Positions 42,030 to 64,000 of a stretch of 64,000 nt of DNA are shown piece by piece. Under the pieces are notes generated by a model that worked only from the letters and a program-made list of their open reading frames with translations, ran no database searches and was not told the origin of the DNA. Position 1 is the stretch's first letter. Every line of letters begins with the position of its first letter. Where the stretch lies: positions 1 through 64,000 of the forward strand of contig NZ_JAAITU010000019.1 in assembly GCF_013304385.1 (NCBI RefSeq), written 5' to 3'. This DNA is from Blautia glucerasea. Lineage in GTDB: Bacteria > Bacillota > Clostridia > Lachnospirales > Lachnospiraceae. Position numbers and translations under genes: made by a program.

Positions 42030-42038
42030 GGGGTACGG

Positions 42039-44772: not shown

Positions 44773-44897
44773 CACCCCAGTTATGGGGTGCGCACAGATA
44801 GACCACACTCCGTATGGTCTTGTGCGCTCTCCGAGGGCACCTGCGGTGGGCGTTGCCTGCCTTGCACCAGTCAAGAGGGGAAATAACCTTTCCCCTC
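44773..44897 (+). other. Candidate origin of transfer (oriT)
   Basis: Non-coding stretch just before the relaxase gene with three nested dyads. CACCCC/GGGGTG is at 44773-44790. A bulged 13-bp repeat pairs GCGCACA (bulge GAT) AGACCA at 44790-44805 with TGGTCTTGTGCGC at 44815-44827. GAGGGGAAA/TTTCCCCTC is at 44875-44897. A hairpin of this kind upstream of a MobL relaxase is the usual oriT layout. The nick site is not identifiable by eye. Confidence 0.55.
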
Positions 44898-45025
44898 CGT
44901 CCGCTGCGCTTCCTACCCCTTTGTATCCTTTGCATCTGCCCGTAACCCGGAAAAAACACCCGGCTTTCGTCCATCTGCAAAGGCTTTTCTTGCTGCCCTC
45001 TATTTTACGGTAAGGGAGGAACTTT

Positions 45026-46729: not shown

Positions 46730-46791
46730 ATTTATACATCGTTAAGGAAAATCTGCCGGGATGTTCCCCGGCAGGCAGAAAGGAGATTGCA

Positions 46792-47061
46792 ATGAGTAAA
46801 GATTGCAGGACTACGAAAAACAGAAACAATAGTTTGACAGTTGGTGTGCTGGCAGGGATAATCCTCTGCCAGCATTGGTATTTATGGAGGGATTTTATGC
46901 AGAGAAAAGCAGGGAACCGTCGGAGAGAACCCATCCGCTATGTGGTGGAACACGTTTATTCCGGCAAGGAGAGCATGGAAAAGGTACTGACTGCCGTTAG
47001 TGAAGAAGCGGCGAAACAGAATGTAAAGGAGAAACTGGAAAATCAGAAAAAGGTGGGATGA
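46792..47061 (+). CDS. Small protein upstream of recombinase (TnpW-like position)
   Basis: 89 residues (AAAGGAG upstream). A hydrophobic stretch is present at about 15-33 (LTVGVLAGIILCQHWYLW), then a basic region with EPIRYVVEHVYSGKESMEKV. The latter half weakly recalls TnpW-type accessory proteins of Tn4451-class elements, but I do not claim the family. A GC-rich hairpin CTGCCGGG/CCCCGGCAG lies just upstream at about 46761-46782. Confidence 0.5.
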   Translation: MSKDCRTTKNRNNSLTVGVLAGIILCQHWYLWRDFMQRKAGNRRREPIRYVVEHVYSGKESMEKVLTAVSEEAAKQNVKEKLENQKKVG

Positions 47062-47181
47062 GAAAAGATGCAGATTTCACCGGAAAAATAAAATCAGCAG
47101 TTGCAGGAGGTGGCAGGAATCGCTATAATAAAGACAGCGTATTTCTGTCACTGGATATTGAAGAAACCACAGGAGGTCAAT

Positions 47182-48807
47182 ATGCAGACAACAGAAATCA
47201 GAGAAACATGGACAGCACTTTATGCAAGATTATCATTGGATGACGGCAATGTGGGCGAGAGCATGAGCATCCAGAGCCAGAAGGCGATCCTTACAAGAAA
47301 AGCAGAAGAACTGGGAATTTATAATTATCGGTTTTATGTAGATGATGGTTATTCCGGTACGAATTTCAACCGTCCGTCCTTTCAACAGATGATAGCGGAC
47401 ATCGAAGCAGGAAAAGTTACCTGTGTGATCACAAAAGACCTTTCAAGATTAGGCAGGAACTATCTGGAGAGCGGTGCTTATATCGAGGTATTTTTCCCAA
47501 AACATCAGGTACGGTATATCGCCGTGAATGACGGTGTGGATTCCGCAAACAGCGGTGAGATGGATATTACCCCGTTTAAGAACATTCTTAATGAGTTTTA
47601 TTCAAGGGATGTTTCTAAAAAGGTGAAGTCAGGTAAGTACATCCGGGCAAGCCAGGGAAAATTCATGGGAACACACGCACCATTCGGGTATCAGAAAGAC
47701 CCGGAGGATAAAAACCACCTGATTGCTGATGAAGAAACCGCACCAACCGTCCGTTATATTTTCCAGCTTGCACTTCAGGGAATGGGAAACAATAAAATCG
47801 GGAAAATCCTTTATGAACAGAAAATCCCAAAGCCGGCATATTATAAACCGGAATATTTTGGAAAGTTTCTGGTAAAAGAAGATGATGCCTATAGCTGGAA
47901 ACAGGAAACCGTTATCCGGATTTTACGCAACCCGCTTTACAAAGGCTATTTCTGGGTGCAGAAATATGATAAGAAGCATTTCAAGCAGGAAACAAGGGGT
48001 TATATCCCCATGAGTGAGCGAACCATTATTCCCAGTGACCATGAGGCACTTGTCGATGAACACACATGGGACACGGTGCAGGAAATCCTTGACCGCCATA
48101 CGAAAGTCAAGCCCTGTACTTCCGGGTATGAGAATAAGTTCCGGGGCATTTTAAAATGTGCCGACTGCGGAAGTACCCTGATGGTGCATACCGATGGCAG
48201 GAATAAAGAGAAGCCAGTCATCGAACGGACTTTTTATCAGTGCCGCATCTACCGTGTGAGGGGAACCGGGTTCTGCAGCCAGCACCGCATCAATGCGGAC
48301 GATCTGGAGGAACTTGTACTTGCGGACATCCAGACCCATGCAAAAAAGGTCATAAAAAACCGGGAGAAATTCATGCGGAAGGTACTGGGGCAGATGGATA
48401 TGACAGCGGTGAATAACCGGGAAAATATCCAGAAAAAGCTGGAGAAACTGGAGAAAAAGCTCCTCGAATCGGACAGACAGTTCATCAAGCTGTATGAGGA
48501 TTTTACAAAGCAGCTTGTGTCAGAACAGCAGTTCCGGATGTTGTCCACCCATTTTGAACAGGAAAAGAAAGAAACAACCGAAGAAATTGAAAAACTGAAA
48601 ACTACGGCTGACAATCTGAAGGACAGCACCTGCAAAGCGGAACAGCTTGCCAATGAAATGGCAGAATGTGCAGAAATCAAAGAGCTGACCACAGCCATAG
48701 TAAACCGTCTTATCGAAAAGATTGAGGTATCTGAACCTCAGACCATCGACGGAGAGAAAGTCCAGAATATCCGGATTTTCTACAAGTTCGTTGGAGAAAT
48801 CAATTAA
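47182..48807 (+). CDS. tnpX: Large serine recombinase (TnpX/TndX type)
   Basis: 541 residues from ATG 47182 (AGGAGGT upstream); a longer frame from 47101 lacks a site. Resolvase domain: YARLSLDDG with catalytic Ser18, VITKDLSRLGRNYLESG with the conserved arginines. Next comes the recombinase domain (THAPFGYQKDPEDKNHLIAD) and a zinc ribbon (CADCGSTLMV, later CRIYRVRGTGFCSQH), ending in a long coiled coil. It excises and inserts the element at GA dinucleotides through 2-bp staggered cuts. It ends 34 bp before the right boundary. Confidence 0.92.
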   Translation: MQTTEIRETWTALYARLSLDDGNVGESMSIQSQKAILTRKAEELGIYNYRFYVDDGYSGTNFNRPSFQQMIADIEAGKVTCVITKDLSRLGRNYLESGAYIEVFFPKHQVRYIAVNDGVDSANSGEMDITPFKNILNEFYSRDVSKKVKSGKYIRASQGKFMGTHAPFGYQKDPEDKNHLIADEETAPTVRYIFQLALQGMGNNKIGKILYEQKIPKPAYYKPEYFGKFLVKEDDAYSWKQETVIRILRNPLYKGYFWVQKYDKKHFKQETRGYIPMSERTIIPSDHEALVDEHTWDTVQEILDRHTKVKPCTSGYENKFRGILKCADCGSTLMVHTDGRNKEKPVIERTFYQCRIYRVRGTGFCSQHRINADDLEELVLADIQTHAKKVIKNREKFMRKVLGQMDMTAVNNRENIQKKLEKLEKKLLESDRQFIKLYEDFTKQLVSEQQFRMLSTHFEQEKKETTEEIEKLKTTADNLKDSTCKAEQLANEMAECAEIKELTTAIVNRLIEKIEVSEPQTIDGEKVQNIRIFYKFVGEIN

Positions 48808-48817
48808 ATTTCCATAA

Positions 48818-48839
48818 TGTACCTATAATTCAAGAGCGA
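48818..48839 (-). repeat. Right terminal inverted repeat of the serine-recombinase element
   Basis: TGTACCT, one base, TAAT, four bases, GAGCGA: reverse complement partner of 35955-35976 (17 of 22). The boundary GA lies at 48842-48843. Confidence 0.7.
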
Positions 48840-48843
48840 TTGA

Positions 48844-50608
48844 ATTATCACCGGAAGGAACGGGCTATCGTGCAAAAACACGGTTTGCCCGTTTTTTCAA
48901 TCTTCCGGAGCTGATCTCCATTTTTAAGGAAGCTGCGGATATTCAGACTTCGGATATGCTGAATCTTCCCGTACCGGAAGCAGAGTTTATCAATGAAGTC
49001 TTGAAGCCAAGTGAAGAACAGCAGGAAATGGTCAGTGCCTTTTCGGAACGTGCGGAAGAAGTAAGAGCCGGTCTTGTGAATCCAACGGTGGACAACATGC
49101 TCAAGATTACCAATGACGGAAGAAAATGTGCATTGGATCAGAGGCTATTAAATGAACTCCTTCCGGATGCAGAAAAAAGCAAGGTCAATACCTGTGTGGA
49201 AAATGCTTTTCAGGTATGGGACGAGGGAAAAGCAGATCGGACAACACAGCTGATCTTCTGTGACTTGTCTACTCCAAAAGGGGATGGGACTTTCAATGTA
49301 TATGATGATGTCCGAAACAAACTGGTTGCTAGGGGAATCCCGAAAGAAGAGATTGCGTTTATCCATGAATACAACACGGAGACAAAGAAAGCAGATTTGT
49401 TTGCAAAGGTACGGGCCGGGCAGGTGAGAATCCTTATGGGTTCCACTCCAAAACTCGGTGCTGGTACCAACGTACAGGACAGGCTCATTGCCCTCCATCA
49501 CCTTGACTGTCCGTGGAAGCCGTCTGATCTGGAACAGCAGGAAGGACGTATCTTAAGACAGGGAAACCAGAATGACAAAGTAAAGATATTCCGGTATGTG
49601 ACGGAAAATACTTTTGATGCGTATATGTGGCAGATTTTGGAGAATAAGCAGAAGTTCATCAGCCAGATCATGACCAGTAAATCCCCGGTCAGGGCTTGTG
49701 AAGATGTGGATGATACGGCACTGTCCTATGCAGAGATCAAGGCACTTGCTACAGGCAATCCGTACATTAAGGAAAAAATGGATCTGGATGTGCAGGTGAG
49801 TAAGCTGAAACTTCTAAAGGCAAACCATACCAGTCAGATTTACCGTCTGGAATCCGATATTGCAAAGAATTTCCCGGTACAGATCAGTGCATTGAAAGAG
49901 CGGATTGCCGGGATGCAGGTGGATTCGCAGGTAGTAAAAAGCGTGGATTTACAGGATAATGACACGTTTGCCATGACGGTAGGGAATGTCCTTTATGAAG
50001 ATAAGAAAGAAGCAGGCGAGGCATTGATCGCCGCCTGTGCAGGGTTAAAAACTGTCAGCACCGGCGGAAAGGTCGGGGAATATCATGGGTTTGCGTTATC
50101 TGCTTCCTACAATATGTTCTCCAATGCGTTTGAACTGACGGTCAAAGGAAAATGCTCTTATAAGCTGGAGATTGGAAAAGACCCGATAGGAAATATGCAG
50201 CGTATCCATAACACCCTTTCTTCTATCGACAGGAAACTGACGGAAAGTGAGCAGAAATTGGAAACTGTACAACAGCAGCTTGCTACTGCACAGGAAGAGG
50301 TAAAGAAGCCATTCCCGAAAGAAGCAGAGCTGAATGAAAAGATGGAACGATTATCCGAGTTAAATGCCCTGCTGAACATGGATGAAAAGGGTAATGAGAC
50401 GATTATGGCAGATGAGGATATTGGCAGAGAAGGAAGCAGCACAGACAGCAGGGATGCCATAGAAGAAAAAGAACTTCCGGAAACAGCAGACAGAATCCTT
50501 AAGCCGTCTATTCTGGAACGCTTAAAGCAGGAGAAGGCACAGCAGAATACAGCGGAACAGCCATCTGTACAGAAAGCTGCAAAGAAAAAACATGAACAGG
50601 AGTTATAA
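48844..50608 (+). pseudogene. Methylase/SNF2-like helicase, 3-prime part
   Basis: Remaining 588 codons plus stop of the split helicase, resuming after the element as LSPEGTGYRAKTRFARFFNL. It holds helicase motifs V-VI: MGSTPKLGAGTNVQDRLIAL and QQEGRILRQGNQNDKV, followed by a long coiled-coil C-terminus. A start at ATG 48956 could give a 550-residue fragment, but that lacks the P-loop and would not be an enzyme. With a single GA from the left part the frame is exact. Confidence 0.85.
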
Positions 50609-50662
50609 AAGATTTCCCGTCAGAGTTTTCTCTGGCGGGGACATAAAATGGAGGGTTTGTTT

Positions 50663-53600
50663 ATGGCAAATAATATAGAAAAACAGTTAAAAGAAATATC
50701 GGAACGGCTGGAACAGGGAGTAAAGGAAATCTTTACTTCGGAGAGATATACCGAATATCTGAATACCATGTCAAAGTTCCACAATTACAGCTTTAATAAC
50801 ACGTTGCTGATCACCATGCAGAAACCGGAAGCAACACTGGTGGCAGGCTATCAGGCATGGCAGAAGAAATTTAACCGTCATGTAAAACGTGGAGAGAAAG
50901 GAATCCAGATCATCGCACCAGCACCGATACGGGAGAAACAGGAGATTGAAAAGATCGACCCGGTAACAAAAGAGCCTGTGATCGGGGATGATGGACAGCC
51001 GGAAACAGAGATCGTGGAGATGGTGATACCGAGATTCCGTGTAACGACAGTGTTTGATGTCAGCCAGACAGAGGGGGAACCGATCGCAGAACTGGAGGTA
51101 CCGGAGCTTACCGGAAGTGTACAGTTTTATGATACGTTTATGCAGGCATTGCAGAATATTTCTCCTGTACCGATCCGCATGATGAATGTGGAAGGGGATG
51201 CAAAAGGCTATTATCACCAGACAGAAAAATATATTGCGATAAAGGAAGATATGAGTAATGTACAGACGATGAAAACCGGAGTCCATGAAGTGAGCCACGC
51301 ATTGCTGCATGACCGGGAAGTAATGGATGTGGAAGGCGTCTTAAAAGACCAAACAACAAAGGAAGTGGAAGCAGAAAGTATCGCTTATATTGTCTGCAAC
51401 CATTTTGGTCTGGATACTTCAGAATATTCGTTTACCTATATCGCCAGCTGGTGCGAGAGCAGGGATATGAAGGCGTTGAAAGCATCAATGGATACCATCC
51501 GAAAAACATCTGCAGAGATCATTGGGAACATTGAGGAGCAGATGCATGAGCTGGAAAGAGAAAATATCATGCAATATGAAGAAAAAGAAGCATCTGCCAC
51601 CAGACAGGAAAAACTGGAACAGGACAGTGCGGAAAAGATTGATGAAACTTTGCTTTTTCATGGAGAAAGCGGTCGTTTTGCAATCTATCAGATGGATACG
51701 GGCGGAGAGCATACTTATCAGTTTATGGGTTTTGAATCAGCTAAAAAATTAGGCTATACCATTGAGGGGAAAGACTACAGGATGGTGTATGCGGCTCCGT
51801 GGACACCAACGATCACATTAGAGGATATTTTTGAGAGATTTAATATCAACCGCCCGAACGATTTTCATGGACATTCCTTATCGGTAAGCGACGTCATAGT
51901 TATAAACCGGACGGCGGAGACAAAGGCTTATTATGTGGATTCTTTCGGCTTTGAGGAACTTCCGGACTTTGTACAGCAGAGAATGGAGATGCTGGAAAAT
52001 AATCATACCAGAGCCTATCCGCCAGTTTATAAAGGAACACTTGCTCAGGCAATGGAAGAACGGGATGTAGATGCTTATCTGGATTCCAGAAAGTTAAATA
52101 TTGATTGTAAGAAAGCAATCGAGGAAGCAATCGCATTAAATTTTGACGGGCTGCATTTAAAGGAAGATGTCGCAAAACAAGTGCTGGAACAGTTTGGAGA
52201 AGAACGTATGACGTTTGTTATGGCAAATACACTTCGGGAACTTTCTTATGACGGCAGATTTTCCAAACAGAACAAAGACTGGGCAGAACATATCGAAATC
52301 CCGGAAAATATCAATCAGGGGAAGAATCTGAATCAGGATTATGTGATAGAAAGCCACCCAGCGGTGTTAGATGGATTTATTGATATGGCAAGGGCAGAGA
52401 TCCGTATGCAGAAGATTGAACAGGCATTAGATGAAGCGGAAGTCACCATTACAGCAGATACCAGAGGATTTGAAGCAGATGGACATGCAGGAACCTGGCA
52501 TACAGTAGATGAAAGAGAGTATGCAGGGGAGAAGTTCTTCTTCATGGAACATGATGAGTATGGTTCAGATGTGGCAGGGATTATCGTATCGGAACATGGT
52601 CAGCTTGTCGCAGAAGATCTCTGGAATGGGTATGATGCAGGAGCATTGGAAGCTATTTCAGAATATCTGCAGGAGAAAGGGATTTCTGTGGAAGGACTTA
52701 TGCCGGAACTGGAACCGGATGAACTGGCATATAAGATTGACGATAGGTATTTTGCAATCCAGAGAACAGAGGAAGGCTATGATTATACCTTTTATGCTTT
52801 GGATTACGATGAGATCGACGGCGGTGCCTATGACAATCCTGATATTTCTATGCAGCAGGCAATGGAAGATATTCTGGAAGATGAAGAAATGTCCCTGGAA
52901 AATGCAGTTCCCGTTGACTATGAGGATTTGATGGCAGAAGTGGAAGAAGCAGGCGAACGGCAGATGCAGCTGGCACAGTTATTAAAGAATTGTCCACCAA
53001 GTATTTTTGAGGATTATGACAGGAAAAGAGCAGTGGATACCTGTGAGGGAATTGTAATGCAGTTTACCAAGAGCAAAGGGTATCTGACCGTACAGGCAAC
53101 GGAAGAAGGCTATTTTTATATTTTTTATGATTCTGACCTGCACGAAATCCATTCCAATGATTATGACGATCCCAAAGTATCTGTTCAGAAAGCTACTTAT
53201 GAAATCTTAAAAAGTGAAAGAATGGATGATATGGAATGTGTCAAAGTGGACTATAAAGAATTTGAGGCAATGACCATCCAACATTCAAAGGATTTACTAC
53301 AGTCAGGTGAGCTTCGTGCGACTTCTGAGATTGGAAGAGATGAAGCAGCATTAAATGGTCTTAGCAGGGCAGAAGTGGAACGGGGTGTCTTGTATCACGC
53401 ACAGGGTATTCTGGAAGATATGGGATTAGAAAATGAAGTAGAGCTGCTTGCAGCAAGGGTGCATGGTTCCAGAAGCAGAGAGGAACTTTACAGAGATGAT
53501 TCTGACCTTGATGTGGTGCTTTCTTATCGTGGCAATATCCGGGAGGACAGTTTCTTCAATGAATTAAATGCTCATGGTATAGCAATGGCAGGTATTAAGG

Positions 53601-54517
53601 TGGACATCAATCCTATCGCAGAAGAAAGAATCACTCTGGCAGAATATATGAAAGAGTCAGAAGCCTATCTTGATCAGAAGGAAATCGAAAAGCTGGCGGT
53701 GGATTTAGATAATTTCAGCTATGAATATGACACTTACGAATATAAAGATATCGTTGAGAACAGGGAAGAACAGGTGAAGAAAATCACAGAGGACATTCTG
53801 AATAAGAAAACAGGGTGTTTAAAGGACTGGTTGGTTGAAGTATCGGAAGAATCTGATATAGACAGTGATGTGATAACTGCCCGGTCACTGCTCTCCCGTT
53901 TAGAAAATGCAGAAACCTTTTCTATCTTTACCAGACAATCAGAACAGGAACAGCCAGAAGCTACGATCAGTTTCTATGTAGCAGAGTGCATGGAGTTCCC
54001 GGTCATGGGTGAGTACCATAATAATCTTACTCTGGAAGAAGCAATCAAAATCTATGAAAGTATTCCGGCAGAACGCCTGCATGGAATCAAAGGGATTGGT
54101 TTTGATCTGCAGGACGGGGATGAGGATTATTCCGGGGAATACGGACTCATGAGTGGAGACAGGATAGACAGGGATCTGATTGATATGATTCCACATTATA
54201 AGGAAAGCCCATTGGTACAGAAAGCAATCAATGACATGGAAAAGTATCTGAATGAGAAACATGGAAAAGTGCAGGAGGCAGAACAGACCGTGGAAGTGAA
54301 ACAGAAAGTTTCAGAAACACCATTCAAGAAAGAATCCGTATCAGTAGAATCGAACCGGGAACAAAACAAAGAGCCTGCAAAGGGTGGAAAAGGGGAACTG
54401 AAAAAATCCGTGCTGCAGTCGTTAAAAGAGTTCCAGGCAAGAGCAAAAGCACAGGAGCAGAAAGAAATGGCAACTGAAAAATCCAAAGCACATAAGAAGG
54501 GAAATGTAGAATTATGA
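50663..54517 (+). CDS. ArdC-like antirestriction protein with YodL and nucleotidyltransferase regions
   Basis: 1284 residues from ATG 50663 (GGAGG in the previous codons; ATG 50648 also possible). The N-terminus is ArdC-like ssDNA-binding (YSFNNTLLITMQKPEATLVA). A metallopeptidase site HEVSHALLHD is at about residue 210. A YodL-like stretch follows (FHGHSLSVSDVIVINRT), then two similar acidic domains (about 570-760 and 790-870). At about 930-985 there is a polymerase-beta-type nucleotidyltransferase motif: HGSRSREELYRDDSDLDVVL with a third Asp in KVDINPI. ArdC proteins protect incoming single strands from restriction. The nucleotidyltransferase part is complete enough to be active. The next gene overlaps its stop. 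Confidence 0.8.
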   Translation: MANNIEKQLKEISERLEQGVKEIFTSERYTEYLNTMSKFHNYSFNNTLLITMQKPEATLVAGYQAWQKKFNRHVKRGEKGIQIIAPAPIREKQEIEKIDPVTKEPVIGDDGQPETEIVEMVIPRFRVTTVFDVSQTEGEPIAELEVPELTGSVQFYDTFMQALQNISPVPIRMMNVEGDAKGYYHQTEKYIAIKEDMSNVQTMKTGVHEVSHALLHDREVMDVEGVLKDQTTKEVEAESIAYIVCNHFGLDTSEYSFTYIASWCESRDMKALKASMDTIRKTSAEIIGNIEEQMHELERENIMQYEEKEASATRQEKLEQDSAEKIDETLLFHGESGRFAIYQMDTGGEHTYQFMGFESAKKLGYTIEGKDYRMVYAAPWTPTITLEDIFERFNINRPNDFHGHSLSVSDVIVINRTAETKAYYVDSFGFEELPDFVQQRMEMLENNHTRAYPPVYKGTLAQAMEERDVDAYLDSRKLNIDCKKAIEEAIALNFDGLHLKEDVAKQVLEQFGEERMTFVMANTLRELSYDGRFSKQNKDWAEHIEIPENINQGKNLNQDYVIESHPAVLDGFIDMARAEIRMQKIEQALDEAEVTITADTRGFEADGHAGTWHTVDEREYAGEKFFFMEHDEYGSDVAGIIVSEHGQLVAEDLWNGYDAGALEAISEYLQEKGISVEGLMPELEPDELAYKIDDRYFAIQRTEEGYDYTFYALDYDEIDGGAYDNPDISMQQAMEDILEDEEMSLENAVPVDYEDLMAEVEEAGERQMQLAQLLKNCPPSIFEDYDRKRAVDTCEGIVMQFTKSKGYLTVQATEEGYFYIFYDSDLHEIHSNDYDDPKVSVQKATYEILKSERMDDMECVKVDYKEFEAMTIQHSKDLLQSGELRATSEIGRDEAALNGLSRAEVERGVLYHAQGILEDMGLENEVELLAARVHGSRSREELYRDDSDLDVVLSYRGNIREDSFFNELNAHGIAMAGIKVDINPIAEERITLAEYMKESEAYLDQKEIEKLAVDLDNFSYEYDTYEYKDIVENREEQVKKITEDILNKKTGCLKDWLVEVSEESDIDSDVITARSLLSRLENAETFSIFTRQSEQEQPEATISFYVAECMEFPVMGEYHNNLTLEEAIKIYESIPAERLHGIKGIGFDLQDGDEDYSGEYGLMSGDRIDRDLIDMIPHYKESPLVQKAINDMEKYLNEKHGKVQEAEQTVEVKQKVSETPFKKESVSVESNREQNKEPAKGGKGELKKSVLQSLKEFQARAKAQEQKEMATEKSKAHKKGNVEL

Positions 54518-55042: not shown

Positions 55043-55555
55043 GTGGATGCAGATTTTCTTTTGATTCACAAAATGAAAAATGGTGATGAAGAAGCTATAG
55101 AGGTATTCGTAAAAAAATACTATTCAACTATACGGAATTATTGTCGATTACATACATACACAGACTGTGATGCAGAAGATATTACTCAAGCAACATTTGA
55201 ACACTTTTTTCGATCATTTAGATCGTATCATCATTTGGGAAAGACTGCTAATTATTTGTATGTGATTGCTCGAAATTTATGTCGGGATAGTTATAAGAAA
55301 AAAAGAGATATTGTGATGGAAGCGTTACCAGATAAGGGGGAAAATCCAATTGCTGTAATTGAGAATAAAATAGATATAGAAGAATCAATAAAAAAACTTC
55401 CAGAAGATTTGCAGGAAGTAGTTATTCTACATTATTTTCAGGATTTGAAATTAAAAGAAGTAGCAGACATTATTGGCATAGGACTTCCTCTTGTAAAATA
55501 TAGGATAGGAAAAGCAAAAGAATTGTTGAGTGTTTATCTGGGGGATAAGAAATGA
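55043..55555 (+). CDS. ECF-type RNA polymerase sigma factor
   Basis: 170 residues from GTG 55043 (AAGGAGGAAAG upstream). Region 2: DCDAEDITQATFEHFFRSF and NYLYVIARNLCRDSYKKK. Region 4: LPEDLQEVVILHYFQDLKLK then EVADIIGIGLPLVKYRIGKA. It is a compact two-domain ECF factor. Its stop overlaps the next gene, a membrane protein that may be its anti-sigma factor. The operon continues with an ABC exporter, suggesting envelope or peptide stress control. Confidence 0.88.
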   Translation: MDADFLLIHKMKNGDEEAIEVFVKKYYSTIRNYCRLHTYTDCDAEDITQATFEHFFRSFRSYHHLGKTANYLYVIARNLCRDSYKKKRDIVMEALPDKGENPIAVIENKIDIEESIKKLPEDLQEVVILHYFQDLKLKEVADIIGIGLPLVKYRIGKAKELLSVYLGDKK

Positions 55556-56316
55556 TGATGACAGTTGATGAAAAATTGCATGCGTATGCAAAAAATCAGA
55601 AGGATAGAAATATAGATGAGAAAAAATTACAACAGACCATTATAAAATCGAAAGAAGCATATTGGGATAGAGAAATCGAAAGAAATATGTCATGGTTAGA
55701 ATTTTTATATCAGCAGGCTTCGTATATACAGAAGCACTGGTGGTTTGCTCAAGGGGCAGTATTACTAATCCTTTGGATGACAATGTTCTTATCAGACAGT
55801 AGTATTTATACAAGGCGCTGCATGGGGATTTTGGCACCGAGTTTTGTAATATTGATACTTCCGGAACTCTGGAAAAATAGAAGCAATGGGGCTATGGAAG
55901 TAGAAGGTGCAACATTTTTTTCCATAAAGAATATATATGCCGCACGAATGCTACTCTTCGGCATGGTAGATGTTTGCCTATTGAGTGTGTTTTTGATAAC
56001 CAGCACTTTTGTGTTACAGATTACATTTATGGATATCTTAATACAATTTATTTTGCCAATGAATGTGACATGCTGCATATGTTTTCGATTACTTTGCAGT
56101 AAAGGAGATGATTATGTATCTTCCACATTATTTTCCTGTCTGATTTGGATTGCTGTTTGGACGCTTGTAGTTCTCAAAGATAGTATTTATGAGCATATAT
56201 CTACATCAATATGGTGTGGAATGATGATATTATCTGTTTTATATTTGTGTTACAGTATTTGGCGAGTATGGAAATGCAGTGAAAGATATTACGAGAGTAA
56301 TGGGGCAAGTGTATAA
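55552..56316 (+). CDS. Membrane protein, possible anti-sigma factor
   Basis: 254 residues, ATG overlapping the sigma factor stop. The first 60 residues are cytoplasmic, charged and helical (DEKLHAYAKNQKDRNIDEKK). About six membrane helices follow from residue 65 to 240, with a Trp/Cys-rich style. Coupling to an ECF gene and a cytoplasmic N-terminal domain suggest anti-sigma activity, but no zinc-binding motif is seen. It may also be an ABC transporter partner. Confidence 0.55.
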   Translation: MMMTVDEKLHAYAKNQKDRNIDEKKLQQTIIKSKEAYWDREIERNMSWLEFLYQQASYIQKHWWFAQGAVLLILWMTMFLSDSSIYTRRCMGILAPSFVILILPELWKNRSNGAMEVEGATFFSIKNIYAARMLLFGMVDVCLLSVFLITSTFVLQITFMDILIQFILPMNVTCCICFRLLCSKGDDYVSSTLFSCLIWIAVWTLVVLKDSIYEHISTSIWCGMMILSVLYLCYSIWRVWKCSERYYESNGASV

Positions 56317-56385
56317 GACTATTATGGTGTCAATTACGAGAAATCACACAACGGTCGTAATCAGAGAAATGTGAGGAATTTGATT

Positions 56386-57273
56386 ATGGAATTAGAATTG
56401 AAAAAATTAACAAAAGAATTTCAGGGATTTAAAGCAGTTGATGATATCACGCTGACGATGAGTAATGGAGTTTATGGGCTTCTTGGTGTCAACGGTGCTG
56501 GAAAAACAACGCTGATGAGAATGCTCTGCACACTTATTAAACCTACTTCGGGAAGCATATTATGTGATGGAAAAGATATTTTTGCATTGGATGGCGAATA
56601 TAGGAGAATTCTTGGTTATTTACCTCAAGAATTTGGATTTTATCCGGAATTTTCGGTTCATGATTATTTAATGTATATTGCGTCAATTAAAGGAATGCGA
56701 ATAAGTATTGCACGAAAGCGTGTAACAGAACTTCTGCGGCAGGTTGGGTTGGCTAAAATGCAGAATAGAAAAATGAAAAAATTGTCTGGAGGAATGAAAC
56801 GCCGTGCAGGGATTGCCCAAGCTATGCTAAATAACCCAAAGATTTTGATCCTCGATGAGCCTACTGCAGGTCTGGATCCGAATGAAAGGATACGTTTTCG
56901 AAATCTGATCAGTGAATTGTCACAGGATCGTCTCGTGCTATTATCAACACATATTGTGTCGGATATTGAATACATTGCCAACCAGGTGTTATTGATGAAA
57001 GATGGAAAGATTAGCCATTCAGGAACACAAGAAGAGATTATTCAGTCAGTACCAGTAAAAGTATGGAGTTGTGTAGTTGCAAATAATGAAGTTGAAATGT
57101 GGCAAAAACAGTTTAAAGTCTCAAATATGAAAACACTTTCGGATGGAATAGAATTACGCATTTTGTCTGAAAAATCTCCACACTATAATGCGAAAGAGGA
57201 AACGATGACTTTGGAGGACATATTCTTATATTATTTCGGAGAGAAAACAGGTGATGATTATGACGTATTATGA
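56386..57273 (+). CDS. ABC transporter ATP-binding protein
   Basis: 295 residues from ATG 56386. Walker A GVNGAGKTTLMRML, Q-loop YLPQEFGFYPEFS, signature LSGGMKRRAGIAQ, Walker B ILILDEPTAGLDP and H-loop STHIVSDIE are all intact. This is the CcmA/BcrA-like class used in bacteriocin or antibiotic export. The permease gene starts within its last codons. Confidence 0.9.
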   Translation: MELELKKLTKEFQGFKAVDDITLTMSNGVYGLLGVNGAGKTTLMRMLCTLIKPTSGSILCDGKDIFALDGEYRRILGYLPQEFGFYPEFSVHDYLMYIASIKGMRISIARKRVTELLRQVGLAKMQNRKMKKLSGGMKRRAGIAQAMLNNPKILILDEPTAGLDPNERIRFRNLISELSQDRLVLLSTHIVSDIEYIANQVLLMKDGKISHSGTQEEIIQSVPVKVWSCVVANNEVEMWQKQFKVSNMKTLSDGIELRILSEKSPHYNAKEETMTLEDIFLYYFGEKTGDDYDVL

Positions 57274-58489
57274 AATAAAAAAAGTTTTTTCAAAAAAAGG
57301 AAGTAAGGTTGCGCTGATATTTATTTTTATTGTAATTTCAGTAGTCTTGTCTTTTATCATCGGGGATAATAAATATGTGAATCGTAATGGTGATGCGGAA
57401 AGTGGAATATCGGCTATGTTAAAGGTTCGTGAGTTGAAAAAAGAATGGTCAGGAGAACTGACAGAGGATGTGCTTAGAAAAATTATTGAAGAAAATGTCA
57501 GGATTTCACAGACACCGGAAGCTAAGTCGAATGATTTTAGACAGAATGATATAGCATATAGTCAAAGACAGGGTTTCATGGATATAAGGGATTTACTAAA
57601 TTGTGATTATGGAGAGTTTAACGATTATAATTATTATCTGGCAGATTCTCTTTCTCCTGATGAAGCAGTAGATTTTTATTCTAATCGTATCAAAAATTTG
57701 AAAAATTGGTTAGAAACTGATGGAAAGGATCAGTTTTCTGAAAAGGAAAAAAGTTATTTAATAAGAGCGTATGAAAAAATGAAAACCCCTTTATATTATG
57801 ATTATCAAGCGGGATGGAAAAACTTATTTCAATATTCACCCTCAATAATTATGATTTTGACATTGGTATTAGGTTTCCTTTGTGCAGGTATTTTTTCAGG
57901 TGAATTTCAGCTGAAAGCGAATGCAGTTTTTTATTCTTCTTATTATGGCAGAAATAAGGCTGTATGGGCAAAAGTGAAAGCAGGAGCAATCATAATAACG
58001 GCTATTTACTGGGCGGTTATGTTGTTATACACTATGCTTGTTTTGGGAATTCTTGGTGTAGACGGAGCAAATTGTCCCATACAGTCTAGTATGAGTGGGT
58101 GGAAGAGTATTTATAATATCACGAATGCTCAGGAATATATTTTGATAGTTCTTGGTGGATATCTGGGATGTTTATTTATGCAATCTCTAACTATGTTGGT
58201 TTCTGCGAAGACAAACTCATCAGTAATAGCGGTAATCGTGCCTTTTATTTTGATTTTTCTTCCATCATTTTTATCAGGAACAAGTCTACCATTATTAAAT
58301 AAAATTTTGGGACTTCTTCCAGATCAAATGCTTCAAATGAATCAGGTAGTTAAATTTTTTAACTTGTATGAAATCGGAGGAAAAGTGTTTTGCGCAGTTC
58401 CTATTTTAATAATATCGTACTCCATTCTGCTATTATTGATTGTTCCAGTTATTTATTTTATATATCGCAGAAAAGAAGTTTATAATTAG
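57260..58489 (+). CDS. ABC-2 type transporter permease
   Basis: 409 residues from ATG 57260 (earlier starts at 57251 and 57254 are possible). One helix is at about 15-37, then an extracytoplasmic domain of about 150 residues, then five more helices from about 195 to the end. This large loop after the first helix is typical of ABC-2 exporters that handle peptides. It forms a complex with the ATPase encoded just upstream. Confidence 0.8.
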   Translation: MTYYEIKKVFSKKGSKVALIFIFIVISVVLSFIIGDNKYVNRNGDAESGISAMLKVRELKKEWSGELTEDVLRKIIEENVRISQTPEAKSNDFRQNDIAYSQRQGFMDIRDLLNCDYGEFNDYNYYLADSLSPDEAVDFYSNRIKNLKNWLETDGKDQFSEKEKSYLIRAYEKMKTPLYYDYQAGWKNLFQYSPSIIMILTLVLGFLCAGIFSGEFQLKANAVFYSSYYGRNKAVWAKVKAGAIIITAIYWAVMLLYTMLVLGILGVDGANCPIQSSMSGWKSIYNITNAQEYILIVLGGYLGCLFMQSLTMLVSAKTNSSVIAVIVPFILIFLPSFLSGTSLPLLNKILGLLPDQMLQMNQVVKFFNLYEIGGKVFCAVPILIISYSILLLLIVPVIYFIYRRKEVYN

Positions 58490-58590: not shown

Positions 58591-58953
58591 TTGAAAACCG
58601 GACGAAATATATATTGTGATGAAAAAAATATAAATCCATTGAAAATACATTATGGAGATATTGTTATTTTATTAGCCACAAGAGAATTATTCCGAAAGCA
58701 GAAAAAAATAGATTTGTCTTTTACAGAGTTTGAAATTTTGCATTTATTAATGCGAAGTCCTGGAAGAGTGTTTAGTAAAGAACAAATATATGATATAATC
58801 TGGAATGAACCCTATTCGGGTGATTACAATGTTGTTATGCGACATATCTGCAACATTAGAGAAAAGATAGAAGATGATCCTGGACATCCGGTATATATAC
58901 AAACGGTGCGCGGTGTAGGATATCGGTTTAACGGAAATTTAGGCAGCGAGTGA
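58591..58953 (+). CDS. Receiver-less winged-helix regulator, paralogue
   Basis: The winged-helix domain (FTEFEILHLLMRSPGRVFSK; NEPYSGDYNVVMRHICNIRE; VRGVGYRFNG) closely matches the regulator at 41325-41759. Codons homologous to that protein's N-terminus continue upstream to about 58522 (IGKILLLSFKDSEEEIIESV). However, no usable start is in frame there: the leader reads GTGAAAACATAGG where the paralogue reads GTGATGAATATAGG, as if one base were deleted. Translation could begin at TTG 58591 (120 residues), giving a shortened protein. It follows the ABC exporter genes and may control them. Confidence 0.65.
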   Translation: MKTGRNIYCDEKNINPLKIHYGDIVILLATRELFRKQKKIDLSFTEFEILHLLMRSPGRVFSKEQIYDIIWNEPYSGDYNVVMRHICNIREKIEDDPGHPVYIQTVRGVGYRFNGNLGSE

Positions 58954-58972
58954 AATCGCTGCCTATTATTAT
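58941..58972 (+). terminator. Terminator after ECF-ABC operon
   Basis: AGGCAGCGA pairs with TCGCTGCCT (58941-58949 and 58956-58964), 6-nt loop, followed by an A/T-rich tract. It overlaps the end of the regulator gene. Confidence 0.6.
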
Positions 58973-58976
58973 GGTT

Positions 58977-59183
58977 TTACAAAGAAGGAAGTTTGTTATG
59001 AGAAGATCTTTGTATTTTAGGAGCATCCTGTTTGAGATATTTGGACAGGTTTTGATGTATCAATTCCAACTCTTTTGTTTCTTGCTTAAAGGAAACGTAT
59101 TGAGTATTTATTGACTTCTTGTTGGAAATAAGATTTGAAAGTTGCTCCTGTAACTTATTAGTATTAAGATGCTTGGGAAACAT
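58977..59183 (-). pseudogene. Possible C-terminal remnant of a relaxase-like gene
   Basis: Minus-strand frame of 68 codons, with KLQEQLSNLISNKKSINTQY then SFKQETKELELIHQNLSKYL: a coiled coil like the C-terminal ends of conjugative relaxases. Just upstream an in-frame TAA intervenes, while the preceding sequence still looks coding in the same frame (GHLKAFFDKELYDTLR), so the gene is a decayed fragment. It occupies the 58954-59303 interval, where no intact gene is present. Confidence 0.3.
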
Positions 59184-59303: not shown

Positions 59304-59336
59304 TTGACGTTTAAATATTACAAGTGTAATATTTAA
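59304..59336 (+). promoter_or_regulatory. Promoter with BlaI/MecI-type operator
   Basis: -35 TTGACG (59304-59309), 17-bp spacer, -10 TAATAT (59327-59332). A 26-bp palindrome covers the spacer and -10: arms TTAAATATTACA (59311-59322) and TGTAATATTTAA (59325-59336) about a 2-bp centre. The TTACA-N2-TGTAA core is the BlaI/MecI box. Binding there would block the promoter until a beta-lactam signal removes the repressor. No blaI or blaR1 gene is seen in the window. Confidence 0.78.
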
Positions 59337-59367
59337 GAAAATATGAAAAAAGGAGAAATAAAACTAT

Positions 59368-61470
59368 ATGAGAAAAAAGAAAAGAAAAAAACACACGAAG
59401 ATTATTACAAAAATAGTTTTATTTAGCGGTATATTGATTGGTGGTGGAATCGGTATTGTAACAATAATGAATTGTAATGTTCCTGAAAAAAGACTAATGG
59501 AATATATGAAATATATTGAAAAAGGGGAATATGAGCAAATGTATGCCATGCTGGATCAGAAAAAAAGCAGCATGAACAGTAAGGAAGAATTTATAGAACG
59601 AAATTCTAAAATATATGAAGGCATTGAGATGTCTGATCTGTCCATAACCGATATTACAGTAAAAAGACAAGAAAACGGAAATGCGGCAGTTTCCTATACA
59701 ACAAATATGCAGACTGCTGCAGGAAATGTAGAATTTACCAACGATGCGGTATTTTCACATGATTGGACAGGATATCATTTAATCTGGCAGGATCAGTTGA
59801 TTTTTCCAGAGTTATCTGCAACGGATAAAGTTCAGGTAACGTCAGAAGAGGCAAAGAGAGGAGATATTTTAGACAGAAATGGTCGTCAGTTGGCTGGAGA
59901 GGGAACTGCATCTTCGGTAGGAATTGTTCCGGGCAGGATGGAGAACAGAGAAGATACAATAAAAAAACTGGCAGAGTATCTTGGAATTGGAGCAGACGAA
60001 ATTGAGGATAAGTTAAAAGCCGGTTGGGTAAAAGCAGATTCTTTTGTACCAGTAGCAACAATTCCTAAAATACAAGAGGTCGATCTTTTGACAGTGAATC
60101 CGGATAAAACTGTTCTGGAAGAAAAAGAAAAGCAGGACACATTATTGAAGATTCCAGGTATTATGTTATCTGATGTAAAAGTACGAACTTATTATCTAAA
60201 AGAAGTTGCCTCTCATCTGGTAGGGTATGTACAGGCGGTTACAGCCGAAGATTTGCAGGAACATAAAGGGGAAGGGTATCGTACAAACAGTGTGATTGGA
60301 AAGACTGGACTGGAAACGCTTTATGAAAAAGAACTAAAAGGAACAGATGGGTGTGAAATCTGTATTGTAGATGCAAATGGAAATAAAAAAAGTGTTATTG
60401 CATATGAGCCTAGAAAAGATGGAGAAGATATCCATACTACGATTGATGGTGATCTTCAAAGTACTCTTTATGAACAATTTAAAGAAGACAGAGGATGTTC
60501 TGTGGCTTTGAATCCTTACACAGGGGAAGTATTGGCGTTGGTAAGTACGCCATCTTATGATGATAATGATTTTGTACGTGGAATGGACAACAGCCAGTGG
60601 AGTGCATTAAATGAAAATGAAGATAGGCCTTTATACAACCGCTTTCGCCAGACATGGTGTCCTGGCTCAACTTTTAAACCTGTAATTGCTGCAATTGGAT
60701 TAAAAGTGGGGGCATTTACTGCAAATGACGATTTTGGAAATGAGGGTCTGGCGTGGCAGAAAGATTCCTCGTGGGGAGATTATACAGTGACTACACTTCA
60801 TGATTATGAACCTGTGATCTTGAAAAATGCGCTTATTTATTCAGATAATATTTATTTTGCAAAAGCAGCATTAAAAATTGGTGCGGATCAACTGATGCAG
60901 TCTCTAAATCAAATAGGATTTAATCAGGAACTTCCATTTGATATTAAAATGTCAGAGTCCCAATATTCTAATATGGACAAGATAGAAACAGAAATCCAGC
61001 TTGCTGACAGTGGGTATGGACAGGGACAGATTCTGGTAAATCCTTTGCATCTTGCAAGCATTTATACGGCTTTTCTAAATGATGGAAATATGATAAAGCC
61101 ATATCTTCACGCGGATGATGGAAGCACTTCCAGTGAAATCTGGATAAAAGATGCTTTTTCACCACAAATTGTTTCGGAGGTTATGGAGGGGTTAGAGGGT
61201 GTAGTGAATAACCCGGAAGGAACTGGTTATGGAGCATGCCGGGAAGACATTAGATTAGCAGGAAAAACCGGAACAGCGGAACTGAAAGCTACAAAAGAAG
61301 ATACATCTGGAACAGAAATTGGCTGGTTTACAGTTTTTACTACAGATAGAGATACAAAGAATCCTATTTTGCTCATCAGTATGGTAGAGAATGTGAAAGA
61401 TATTGGAGGAAGCGGTTATGTGGTGGAAAAGGATAAGGCGATACTGGATGAATATCTTGGTAATGAATAA
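59368..61470 (+). CDS. MecA/PBP2a-like penicillin-binding protein
   Basis: 700 residues (AAAAGGAG upstream). One N-terminal membrane anchor (residues about 12-35) is followed by a MecA_N/NTF2-like domain (about 38-150), a PBP dimer domain starting EAKRGDILDRNGRQLAGEGT and a transpeptidase domain. Active-site motifs are S434-TFK (WCPGSTFKP), S492-DN (YSDNIYFAK) and K633-TGT (LAGKTGTAE), with spacing like S. aureus PBP2a (403, 462, 597). It crosslinks peptidoglycan; the MecA_N domain and operator control suggest low beta-lactam affinity and inducible resistance, which is inference. Two exported proteins follow in the same operon. Confidence 0.88.
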   Translation: MRKKKRKKHTKIITKIVLFSGILIGGGIGIVTIMNCNVPEKRLMEYMKYIEKGEYEQMYAMLDQKKSSMNSKEEFIERNSKIYEGIEMSDLSITDITVKRQENGNAAVSYTTNMQTAAGNVEFTNDAVFSHDWTGYHLIWQDQLIFPELSATDKVQVTSEEAKRGDILDRNGRQLAGEGTASSVGIVPGRMENREDTIKKLAEYLGIGADEIEDKLKAGWVKADSFVPVATIPKIQEVDLLTVNPDKTVLEEKEKQDTLLKIPGIMLSDVKVRTYYLKEVASHLVGYVQAVTAEDLQEHKGEGYRTNSVIGKTGLETLYEKELKGTDGCEICIVDANGNKKSVIAYEPRKDGEDIHTTIDGDLQSTLYEQFKEDRGCSVALNPYTGEVLALVSTPSYDDNDFVRGMDNSQWSALNENEDRPLYNRFRQTWCPGSTFKPVIAAIGLKVGAFTANDDFGNEGLAWQKDSSWGDYTVTTLHDYEPVILKNALIYSDNIYFAKAALKIGADQLMQSLNQIGFNQELPFDIKMSESQYSNMDKIETEIQLADSGYGQGQILVNPLHLASIYTAFLNDGNMIKPYLHADDGSTSSEIWIKDAFSPQIVSEVMEGLEGVVNNPEGTGYGACREDIRLAGKTGTAELKATKEDTSGTEIGWFTVFTTDRDTKNPILLISMVENVKDIGGSGYVVEKDKAILDEYLGNE

Positions 61471-61479
61471 TTTTTACCT

Positions 61480-61498
61480 TTAAATATTACAAATGTAA
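61480..61498 (+). promoter_or_regulatory. Second BlaI/MecI-type half-palindrome
   Basis: TTAAATATTACA at 61480-61491 repeats the left arm of the pbp operator exactly. With TGTAA at 61494-61498 it forms TTACA-AA-TGTAA. It merges with the ribosome site (AAGAGGA) of the next gene, so a bound repressor would block that gene as well. Confidence 0.6.
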
Positions 61499-61510
61499 GA
61501 GGAAAATGAT

Positions 61511-62668
61511 ATGAAAAAAATTTGGAAAATATTTGTGGGAGTTATTTTTCTTGCTGTCTGTAGTGGATGTGGCATAAAGAAAGAGCAGAAAAAGACAATT
61601 GAAGATACGAAAGAAAAAATTTACAGAGAGTGTGAAATGCTAGCAGAAGGCTATCGGAACATATATGAGAATGCTGTGAAAGAAAATGCACTATATGAGC
61701 TGAGTACAATACAAAAAAGTATGGATTATTTTGGAAAATATGGATATGCAGTAATTGATTCCTACAATCAGCTGGATATGGTTCAAAGTATTAAAGTAGA
61801 TGATTTTTTGAAAAAAGCAGAAAAAGAGAAGAATGGAAAAACTACTATATTTCAAGTTATAGCAGGGGATCATTTTATCCGGTATGATCTGAAAACCAAA
61901 CAGGGGAAAATAGACGTTGAAGTAAGCTCTTTTAAATGGAAAGAGGACACTTGGCAGGAAACATATTATCATGAGTTTAGAGCTAATTCATGGAAATATA
62001 CAGAAAACGGGCATTTCTTTATAGAAGAATATCATCCGGCAGGATATGATGGACCGTCTGGATATCGGGACTTTCGGGTAGCACCGTTAAATAAAAAATG
62101 TCGGGAGTTGAATCGAAAATATATACTTCCTTTTGGATATACACTTAATAAATTGTTTACTTCTAATTGGAGTGAAAAAAATTATGATGGAATAAATTTT
62201 TATGATGTTTTTGATCGTTTACTTTCAATGGAAGAAAAAACTGATGAATTTAAGGAAGGAAAGACTTATGAAATCCCAAAAGAATCATTTGAAACGATAT
62301 TTCAAAAATATTTTAATATAAGCGCAGAGATACTGCAGACAGGAACGGTATTTCACACAGAAATACAGACATATCGGTATCGAACCAGAGGAATCGTATA
62401 TGATTTTGCTCCCACACCATATATTCCATATCCGGAAGTTGTTTCCTACATAGAAAATCAAGATGGAACAATAACACTGGAAGTAAATGCGGTATGGCCA
62501 CAAAAAGAATTAGATCAGGCGTTTTGTCATAGCGTAACCATTCGGCTGTTAGATAAAGATAGATTTCAATATGTATCCAATTATGTATCAAGGTCAGAAA
62601 TAGAGGTTACCTGGTATACAGAAAGATTATCAGACGAAAAGTGGGAGGAATGTTATGGAGATAATTGA
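61511..62668 (+). CDS. Putative lipoprotein of the PBP operon
   Basis: 385 residues. The lipoprotein signal MKKIWKIFVGVIFLAVCSGC has lipobox C-S-G-C and Cys20 as lipidation site. The mature protein is mixed alpha/beta, Tyr/Trp rich, with GYDGPSGYRDFRVAPL near the middle. I do not recognise the family. The C-terminal half is clearly related to the next gene (FRVAPLNKKCRELNRKYILP versus IRIKPLSDECREVSKRCVYL; both then give a LP/L-G-Y motif). It is probably an envelope partner of the PBP, co-induced through the operator at 61480. Confidence 0.6.
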   Translation: MKKIWKIFVGVIFLAVCSGCGIKKEQKKTIEDTKEKIYRECEMLAEGYRNIYENAVKENALYELSTIQKSMDYFGKYGYAVIDSYNQLDMVQSIKVDDFLKKAEKEKNGKTTIFQVIAGDHFIRYDLKTKQGKIDVEVSSFKWKEDTWQETYYHEFRANSWKYTENGHFFIEEYHPAGYDGPSGYRDFRVAPLNKKCRELNRKYILPFGYTLNKLFTSNWSEKNYDGINFYDVFDRLLSMEEKTDEFKEGKTYEIPKESFETIFQKYFNISAEILQTGTVFHTEIQTYRYRTRGIVYDFAPTPYIPYPEVVSYIENQDGTITLEVNAVWPQKELDQAFCHSVTIRLLDKDRFQYVSNYVSRSEIEVTWYTERLSDEKWEECYGDN

Positions 62669-63902
62669 TATGATTACAAAAAGAAAACTGAAAAAGATGA
62701 TGAGCGTTTTATTTATTTCGGGATGCTTTTTCATAGGAAATACAAAATGTAAAGGGGCTGATTTAGAATATATTTCACAGGAAACTGCGAATTATGCTGT
62801 ACAAGAAAGAGGATATGATTTGCCAGTAGATGAAGTCGTGAAAGAAGAAGCTATTGAAGATTGTAAGAATGTTATGAATCAGATGAAAGTCATTTATCAA
62901 AAGGCGGATAAAGGGACTTCATCGAATATAGTAGTTTCTGAGACAGTAATGGAAGAAATGCAGGAAGTATTAAAGGAAAAAAATGTCCCCGTTATTACAT
63001 CAGCACCGTATTCAAATATGGCTAATTATTCTAAAATGGAAGAATTTCTTTTCAGGGCAGAACAGGATCTGACAGGAGATATCGTCTTATATAGGATTAA
63101 CAGGGATGGTGGGATAGAAAGACTCAAATTCAATTATGATGGGACAGATATGTATTTGCTGGCTGTGAAAGCTGTTTGGGGTATGAACGACAATCCATCT
63201 ATTGTATATGTTTCGTATACAAGGATAGAAGAATGGAAATATACAGAAAAAGGCTGGTTTGGTTATACGCTATGCGTTCCAAAGTATCCGGAAGTATCAG
63301 AAGCGGTTGATGGCAGTTCTATGATAAGAATTAAACCTTTAAGTGATGAATGCAGGGAAGTTTCAAAGAGGTGTGTGTATTTGCTTGGATATCAGGGGAA
63401 TAATCTTTTATGTTCTGATTGGGATAGATCTGATATGGAAGGGTTAGATTATAATGGTTTATATGAATATTTATATCGAATGAAATACGGGGAGAGATAT
63501 GAGTTTTCAGGTAACTCAAGTGGAATTCCGGCAGAAGAGTTTGAAAATCTGATAATGGAGTTTTTGCCGATAACAGCAGATCAAATTAAAAAATGGGCAG
63601 TATTTGATTCGGAACATCAAACTTATGACTGGGAACGATTAGGCTGTTTAAATTATAGCCCTACTTATTTTGGAACATCTTTACCGGAGGTCGTTGAAAT
63701 AAGAGATAGCGGAGAGGGAAACAGTGTGTTGGTTGTTGATGCTGTATGTGATACATTTATATGTAATGATGCCGTTATTACAAGTGAGCTGACTGTTAAG
63801 TTCAACGATGATAAGAGTTTTAAATATATGGGGAATAAAATTCTGAATAATGGTACGAAAGAAGTTCCCAAATATCAATATAGAATAAAAAGAAAGAACT
63901 GA
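62655..63902 (+). CDS. Exported protein, paralogue of the PBP-operon lipoprotein
   Basis: 415 residues from ATG 62655 (GGGAGGA upstream; ATG 62670 is an alternative), overlapping the previous gene by 14 bp. The signal peptide is KLKKMMSVLFISGCFFIGNT, with no firm lipobox. The shared central and C-terminal regions with the preceding protein (WKYTEKGWFGYTLCVPKYPE versus WKYTENGHFFIEEYHPAGYD) show tandem duplication. Function unknown; probably works outside the membrane with the PBP and its partner. Confidence 0.6.
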   Translation: MEIIDMITKRKLKKMMSVLFISGCFFIGNTKCKGADLEYISQETANYAVQERGYDLPVDEVVKEEAIEDCKNVMNQMKVIYQKADKGTSSNIVVSETVMEEMQEVLKEKNVPVITSAPYSNMANYSKMEEFLFRAEQDLTGDIVLYRINRDGGIERLKFNYDGTDMYLLAVKAVWGMNDNPSIVYVSYTRIEEWKYTEKGWFGYTLCVPKYPEVSEAVDGSSMIRIKPLSDECREVSKRCVYLLGYQGNNLLCSDWDRSDMEGLDYNGLYEYLYRMKYGERYEFSGNSSGIPAEEFENLIMEFLPITADQIKKWAVFDSEHQTYDWERLGCLNYSPTYFGTSLPEVVEIRDSGEGNSVLVVDAVCDTFICNDAVITSELTVKFNDDKSFKYMGNKILNNGTKEVPKYQYRIKRKN

Positions 63903-63929: not shown

Positions 63930-64000
63930 TTAATTCCATATATGTAATTTTTTTAAGATATCAGAAGTGATTTCAAATGCTTTTTTGCCAGTTGCATTAG
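63930..64000 (-). CDS. C-terminal end of a convergent gene (partial)
   Basis: Minus-strand open frame from the window edge to TAA at 63930-63932, ending NATGKKAFEITSDILKKLHI then WN. It is convergent with the preceding gene; a weak CTGATA/TATCAG hairpin (63899-63915) lies between them. Too short to name a family; coding potential is only suggested by composition. Confidence 0.35.
   Translation of the reverse strand, partial: NATGKKAFEITSDILKKLHIWN

Follow-up and report, generated by a model that had tools for sequence, protein, structure and literature searches.

A candidate mobile mec-like cassette with a MecA_N-type penicillin-binding protein, DUF6070 proteins and BlaR1/BlaI regulators in Blautia glucerasea

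The mecA-mecR1-mecI and blaZ-blaR1-blaI systems of staphylococci share an operator core, TACA-N2-TGTA. A published account describes their arrangement as a divergon and the way in which BlaR1 and BlaI work in them, and also reports that blaCDD of Clostridioides difficile is under BlaRI control (PMC9834060). The locus addressed here lies in Blautia glucerasea (Lachnospiraceae; assembly GCF_013304385.1), at the right end of a stretch of 64,000 nucleotides, hereafter the window, that corresponds to bases 1-64000 of a contig of 66,766 bases (NZ_JAAITU010000019.1). An earlier note, made from the letters of the window alone, had proposed that a MecA-like penicillin-binding protein (PBP) under a BlaI/MecI-type operator forms an inducible and transferable beta-lactam tolerance locus. 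This interpretation is supported at the level of sequence: the locus is probably a mobile and self-regulated mec-like cassette in which BlaRI would control a MecA_N-type PBP together with DUF6070 proteins. Induction would follow by analogy with known BlaR1/BlaI systems, and a low affinity for beta-lactams from the kinship of the PBP.

Genes and putative operators of the cassette

The whole cassette covers about 6.9 kb, contig 59173-66093 being the part common to the eight Blautia genomes that carry it. It comprises, in this order, pbp, the genes of two DUF6070 proteins and then, on the minus strand and convergent to pbp, blaR1 and blaI, which continue beyond position 64000. According to the earlier note, the repressor and the sensor were not in the window; this is correct apart from the C-terminal end of BlaR1, which lies inside, the two genes being found in the first 2.2 kb beyond position 64000.

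59304..59332, plus strand: pbp promoter, read directly (TTGACG at 59304-59309, 17-bp spacer, TAATAT at 59327-59332)
59311..59336: putative BlaI operator of pbp, perfect 12-2-12 palindrome with core TTACAAGTGTAA, kept in 8 of 8 carriers
59368..61470, plus strand: pbp, 700 amino acids, with membrane anchor, MecA_N, PBP_dimer and transpeptidase domains
61487..61498: second putative operator, TTACAAATGTAA, ahead of the first DUF6070 gene, in 8 of 8 carriers
61511..62668, plus strand: DUF6070 protein 1, 385 amino acids, with CSGC as an imperfect lipobox
62655..63902, plus strand: DUF6070 protein 2, 415 amino acids, with a lipobox-like N-terminus
63930..64000, minus strand: last codons of blaR1, a gene that extends to contig base 65726, outside the window
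contig 65737-66108, minus strand: blaI, outside the window, with TACATATGTA at 66132-66141

The PBP2a-like plan that had been read from the letters is borne out, since one chain matches the Pfam families MecA_N (61.2 bits, cut-off 22), PBP_dimer (123.4 bits) and Transpeptidase (210.1 bits), all above their cut-offs. The motifs STFK, SDN and KTGT follow in this order, with 58 residues from the serine to SDN and 141 from SDN to KTG; this spacing resembles that of the fetched records of Staphylococcus aureus MecA (59/135) and Enterococcus faecium PBP5 (58/137). The name MecA-like holds for the domain plan but not for family membership. Indeed, the best curated model is that of the enterococcal PBP4(5), with 589 bits against a cut-off of 700, followed by MecA with 442 bits against 750; that the PBP is MecA itself was rejected on these scores. 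Its identity with MecA is about 35%. The closest solved structure is 7bn9, a Listeria-type PBP3. In a quick tree with long branches, used only for separate grouping and from which 8 of 65 loci were left out (best PBP piece below 600 bits or too short), 60 PBPs of the cassette family group apart from MecA, PBP4/5 and the Listeria, Priestia and Enterococcus raffinosus sequences. A low affinity for beta-lactams is suggested by the domain kinship with PBP2a, PBP5 and Listeria PBP3; it rests on kinship because the protein falls under the MecA and PBP4(5) cut-offs.

The search of the flanking sequence recovered both regulators next to pbp, and the possibility that the host has no BlaI was thus rejected, blaI lying on the same contig. 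BlaR1 (contig 63930-65726, 598 amino acids) is full-length, with an M56 domain, a penicillin-sensor domain and the motifs HELQH, STYK, YGN and KTGT, and passes its curated cut-off (622 bits versus 400). BlaI (123 amino acids) matches Penicillinase_R with 118.6 bits (cut-off 22.6).

The palindrome of the pbp promoter, TTAAATATTACA-AG-TGTAATATTTAA, is perfect over 26 bp, overlies the -10 box of a consensus promoter together with the greater part of its spacer, and ends 31 bp ahead of the ATG, as had been described. The motif TTACANNTGTAA occurs twice in the window (59318 and 61487), versus 0.07 expected, and none of 100 shuffles reached two; the core TACATATGTA lies ahead of blaI and another TTACAAGTGTAA inside the 5' part of blaR1. 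A stretch of 8.8 kb carries four cores versus 0.17 expected. The shorter core TACANNTGTA alone is not significant window-wide (3 versus 0.97 expected; 7 of 100 shuffles reach 3). The putative operators stand in the places expected of a mec-type locus, namely in the pbp promoter and ahead of the regulator genes. That the palindrome arose by chance was rejected on the shuffles and expected counts, its fixed position in the promoter, and the controlled genome-wide search described below. The site at 61487 and the DUF6070 identity of the two downstream genes were absent from the earlier note. Besides the eight carriers, four other loci (L022, L024, L052 and L080) have an operator in a like place ahead of a DUF6070 gene.

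The two open reading frames downstream of pbp match DUF6070 with 413 and 396 bits. By a simple pattern, 29 of 41 aligned DUF6070 proteins have a lipobox-like N-terminus, others displaying a variant or a membrane-helix-like start; protein 1 of the window, one with a variant lipobox, is probably envelope-anchored, and no relative of it was found in the PDB. These envelope proteins appear to be under the same switch as pbp, and it is their membership of the regulon that is most new in the finding. Among the papers listed by literature searches, no title or opening of an abstract treats DUF6070 or a BlaRI-controlled PBP in Lachnospiraceae; as most subscription papers were not covered, this is weak evidence of absence.

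Related loci and the promoter-operator box

A locus search of named genomes gave 187 candidates, of which the best 80 led to 77 loci; 12 of these, weak PBP matches from Massilia and kin (L083-L094), were dropped, and the figures that follow hold among the remaining 65, taken as real relatives. These come mostly from Lachnospiraceae and other Clostridia. BlaI was found in 28 of the 65, always with BlaR1 and in 24 cases with DUF6070. A TTACN4GTAA palindrome, whose background is 0.07 per 410 bp, stands upstream of the PBP, at a distance of up to about 350 bp, in 25 of the 27 BlaI loci with enough upstream DNA, versus 15 of 35 loci where BlaI was not found, or 4 of 17 when at least 9 kb downstream was available. 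Three loci with less than 200 bp upstream were left out of this test, and, the related loci not being independent, the Fisher comparison of loci with and without BlaI is a guide only. The promoter element TTGAC stands exactly 8 bp ahead of the palindrome in 38 of the 42 operator-bearing loci (those of the host included), and at no other distance within the 22 bp covered. Of 86 operators, 57 have TAATAT and 21 have TAATAA at the -10 position.

Whole genomes were then searched, regardless of genes, for the pattern TTGAC-N9-TTAC-N4-GTAATA, taken from the cassette, with the reversed pattern as control. This gave 18 matches versus none for the control in 64 genomes of the genus, and 48 (in 40 genomes) versus 8 in 397 genomes of the family. 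Among 63 distinct sites overall, the 46 that came with DNA were examined, of which 42 precede PBP, DUF6070 or beta-lactamase genes: 28 PBPs homologous to that of the window (47-100% identity), two other class B-type PBPs, a small open reading frame of 260 amino acids followed by a PBP, six DUF6070 genes, four class D-type beta-lactamases and one class A beta-lactamase. Three other genes and one contig end account for the rest. The class A protein passes a general cut-off (305 versus 200), whereas the class D-type proteins are nearest to blaCDD yet fall under the cut-offs shown. The box therefore marks beta-lactam genes, and it also precedes DUF6070 genes in their own right.

It could be argued that the DUF6070 genes are mere passengers with no functional part in the system. 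Of 120 family genomes, 15 contain DUF6070, and in a class-wide sample of 291 genomes it was detected in the host alone. In the 14 other family genomes, it accompanies a PBP or BlaRI in seven and a PBP remnant in one; six have neither in the stretch examined, some stretches being ended by contig ends, and conversely 4 of the 28 BlaI loci lack DUF6070 in the examined DNA. However, the operator precedes the first DUF6070 gene in all eight carriers, and some of the six DUF6070 genes directly behind a box lie away from any PBP (L209, L212); furthermore, another genome (G015) has a further box at C75:31486, just ahead of a DUF6070 match at C75:31856. The passenger explanation is thus rather doubtful.

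The cassette could also be an inducible module against cell-wall stress, in which the signal for BlaR1 would be peptidoglycan fragments or damage to the wall, which the PBP and DUF6070 proteins would then remodel or repair, with little resistance to beta-lactams. The position of the PBP under the curated MecA and PBP4(5) cut-offs and the presence in the regulon of DUF6070, which has no assigned function, would fit this explanation; a peptidoglycan fragment is reportedly the trigger in Bacillus licheniformis, according to the title of PMC3305447. BlaR1 has, however, a full penicillin-sensor domain, and the same box lies ahead of five beta-lactamase genes, which points to beta-lactams as the signal and makes this alternative unlikely. 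Finally, that the protein is an ordinary extra class B PBP, with BlaRI nearby by an accident of cargo stacking and an operator serving something else, is most improbable: cargo blocks do stack in the element (see below) and three more Penicillinase_R genes occur in the host apart from those of its two cassettes, but the pairing with BlaRI recurs in many genera and the operator has a fixed position within the promoter.

The cassette is also not the only one of its kind in this host. Contig C90 carries a second PBP (60% identical), three DUF6070 proteins, an open reading frame of 503 amino acids, a BlaR1 (48%) and a BlaI (75%), with six TTACN4GTAA palindromes, three of them ahead of the PBP and the other three near the blaI promoter; one-mismatch TTACANNTGTAA sites sit at both its pbp and blaI promoters. 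The two MecA_N and five DUF6070 proteins of the host genome all lie within the two cassettes. The 503-amino-acid frame (L007 7250-8761), located between the DUF6070 genes and blaR1, is also present in G057 (64%), and the family search gave for it no more than a weak Sortilin-Vps10 match. A prophage carrier for this second cassette, which stands beside phage-type replication genes, is unsupported, although contig ends limit the test: of four flanking proteins, the XRE regulator alone recurs at 90% identity or more, in 5 of the 65 loci, two of them short pieces.

Other BlaI-type systems also occur in the host. Another BlaI/M56 pair (L008 3721-6811) includes an M56 protein without a match to the penicillin-sensor domain; this protein and the secreted protein that precedes it share similar repeats at their ends. 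With three TACANNTGTA sites in the surroundings, the pair is perhaps a BlaI-type system with another signal. In the whole host genome, 15 TTACANNTGTAA sites were counted versus 5 for the reversed control. Eight of the 15 have the core TTACATCTGTAA, unlike the cassette operators (contigs C69, C87, C92, C98 with two, C100, C120 and C175), and perhaps belong to another BlaI-family regulon.

Spread of the cassette and stacking of cargo

The PBP is present at 97-100% identity in 8 of 64 genomes of the genus, host included, the next full-length match being at 63% and one fragment at 74%; other carriers include Blautia massiliensis GD8, B. luti MSK.16.34, Blautia sp. MSJ-19 and B. schinkii MSK.6.26. 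When the host is compared with each of the seven remaining carriers, the cassette is 98.3-99.75% identical (an insert in G181 being left out) whereas rpoB regions are only 82.6-83.4% identical, which indicates recent horizontal spread. The contrast is small in some other pairs (rpoB 99.35% and cassette 98.66% between G127 and G135). By contrast, the element gene next to the cassette on its left side, which was found in five carriers, is only 78-94% identical. On the right lie a winged-helix regulator gene and a convergent gene for a MobA/VirD2-type relaxase (92-100%), which is full-length next to the cassette in six carriers; in G181 a remnant takes its place and the full copy is about 14 kb further. 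The host contig ends in the relaxase 3' end, and contig C148, which starts with most of a relaxase gene, is probably its continuation.

The earlier note had placed the PBP beside a conjugative element. Conjugation genes are confirmed, but the cassette lies inside the element and not only beside it, between transfer genes found on the left in the window and a relaxase gene on the far side, accompanied by MobC in L018. The remaining features of this region are the following.

6778..54517, plus strand: conjugation genes (coupling protein, TrbL-like, TraG-like, topoisomerase, ArdC/LPD protein), with unrelated genes interspersed
8957..10789: group II intron reverse transcriptase and maturase, among the conjugation genes
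36054..38066, minus strand: agr-like pair of GHKL histidine kinase and LytTR response regulator, within the element region
55043..58489: cargo block left of the cassette, with an ECF-type sigma factor, a 254-amino-acid protein without family, an ABC ATPase and a 412-amino-acid protein; 99.6% identical in Blautia sp. MSJ-19
58591..58953, plus strand: solitary Trans_reg_C part (C-terminal half) of a response regulator, with a homologous copy after blaI, outside the window
58954..59172: left flank, in which about 198 nt are a copy of the relaxase 3' end; 59173 is the first base of the shared cassette

The left flank of the cassette thus ends in a regulator copy and a relaxase gene end. Two relaxase 3' remnants occur in G132 and one of 139 nt in G135, while in G181 the cassette and the 607-nt relaxase remnant behind it are separated from the full relaxase gene by a further cargo block. 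Globally, the arrangement of the stacked-block loci (window 58591-59172, L184, L185, L189 and L190, with remnants of 139 to 607 nt) suggests that cargo blocks were inserted one after another at the 3' end of the relaxase gene, and that a regulator copy and a gene end came with each of them. The G181 cassette (L184/L185) also carries an insert of about 1.2 kb towards the 3' side of the second of its DUF6070 genes, where the matching pieces overlap by 12 bases, as a target duplication would give.

A second lineage of cassettes, 97-99.6% identical, occurs in a faecal clone (MT836875), Eubacterium ramulus, Faecalicatena contorta, an uncultured Lachnospiraceae bacterium and genome G102, which suggests another recent spread. 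MT836875 (L140), 8.4 kb of unverified and unannotated sequence filed as a bacteriophage, contains a complete PBP-DUF6070-BlaR1-BlaI cassette and is the one strong match in the phage collection, while the scan of viral_contigs gave no relative. The cassette of MT836875 is nearly identical to those of Lachnospiraceae genomes, and this record may not represent phage DNA.

Proposed working and comparison with known systems

The cassette should work like the staphylococcal bla and mec systems, sensing and induction being modelled on known BlaR1/BlaI pairs. BlaI dimers would bind the palindromes over the pbp -10 box, between pbp and the DUF6070 genes and ahead of blaI, keeping the genes off. A beta-lactam would acylate the outer sensor domain of BlaR1, whose M56 metalloprotease would then end repression by BlaI. 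This would allow production of the DUF6070 envelope proteins and of the MecA_N-type PBP, which would carry out transpeptidation in place of the blocked housekeeping PBPs. The cassette would move among Blautia species on a conjugative element, as cargo located close to the relaxase gene.

Several observations weigh against this reading. Besides the position of the PBP under both curated cut-offs, BlaI falls under the curated BlaI/MecI cut-offs, the best being BlaI_of_BCL (124 versus 180). The exact core TACANNTGTA is absent from the C90 cassette, and the 18 sites that match TTACANNTGTAA there with up to two mismatches over 20 kb do not clearly exceed chance (11.5 expected; 11 of 200 shuffles). 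Among the related loci, four with an operator and at least 9 kb downstream are without BlaI, and two BlaI loci are without the palindrome. In Blautia sp. MSJ-19, the near-identity is not confined to the cassette but extends leftwards over the ABC module (99.6%).

If the proposal is true, common gut commensals have a switchable and mobile target-replacement system against beta-lactams whose genes are not named by the curated MecA and PBP4(5) models. It would be a further independent case of how mec-type loci assemble, and DUF6070, a family without known function, would gain a testable setting. On balance, we lean towards the view that the DUF6070 proteins of Lachnospiraceae form a new class of envelope proteins, which BlaI controls and whose work is done with, or for, an inducible MecA_N-type PBP, the gut thus having its own independently assembled mobile mec system with an extra component compared with the staphylococcal one.

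The C. difficile system, like the cassette, places BlaRI control in a clostridium, and CDD-like genes in Lachnospiraceae carry the same promoter-operator; the target is, however, a beta-lactamase there and a PBP with DUF6070 proteins here. The enterococcal PBP4/PBP5 and Listeria PBP3 resemble the cassette PBP in domain plan and motif spacing, and the stretches examined around the fetched E. faecium, E. faecalis and Listeria PBP copies gave no BlaI or BlaR1 match. A PBP of the same broad kind lies near BlaI and BlaR1 on a Priestia megaterium plasmid and an E. raffinosus replicon, but these PBPs are 36-37% identical to that of the cassette, the gene order differs, a class A beta-lactamase gene stands between in Priestia, and DUF6070 was not found at either locus. 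The pairing is therefore wider, and the combination outside staphylococci pointed out by the earlier note, although present in Blautia, is less unique than it seemed.

The staphylococcal systems share with the cassette a MecA_N PBP (mecA), a BlaR1-type sensor protease, a BlaI-type repressor and mobility, and the cassette operators match their core. However, the cassette does not have the divergent plan, blaR1-blaI lying at its far end; furthermore, it adds two DUF6070 genes and rides a conjugative element with a MobA/VirD2-type relaxase. Since its PBP scores nearer to enterococcal PBP4/5 and Listeria PBP3 than to MecA, the cassette looks like an independent mec-like assembly, which resembles mec in plan and not by descent.

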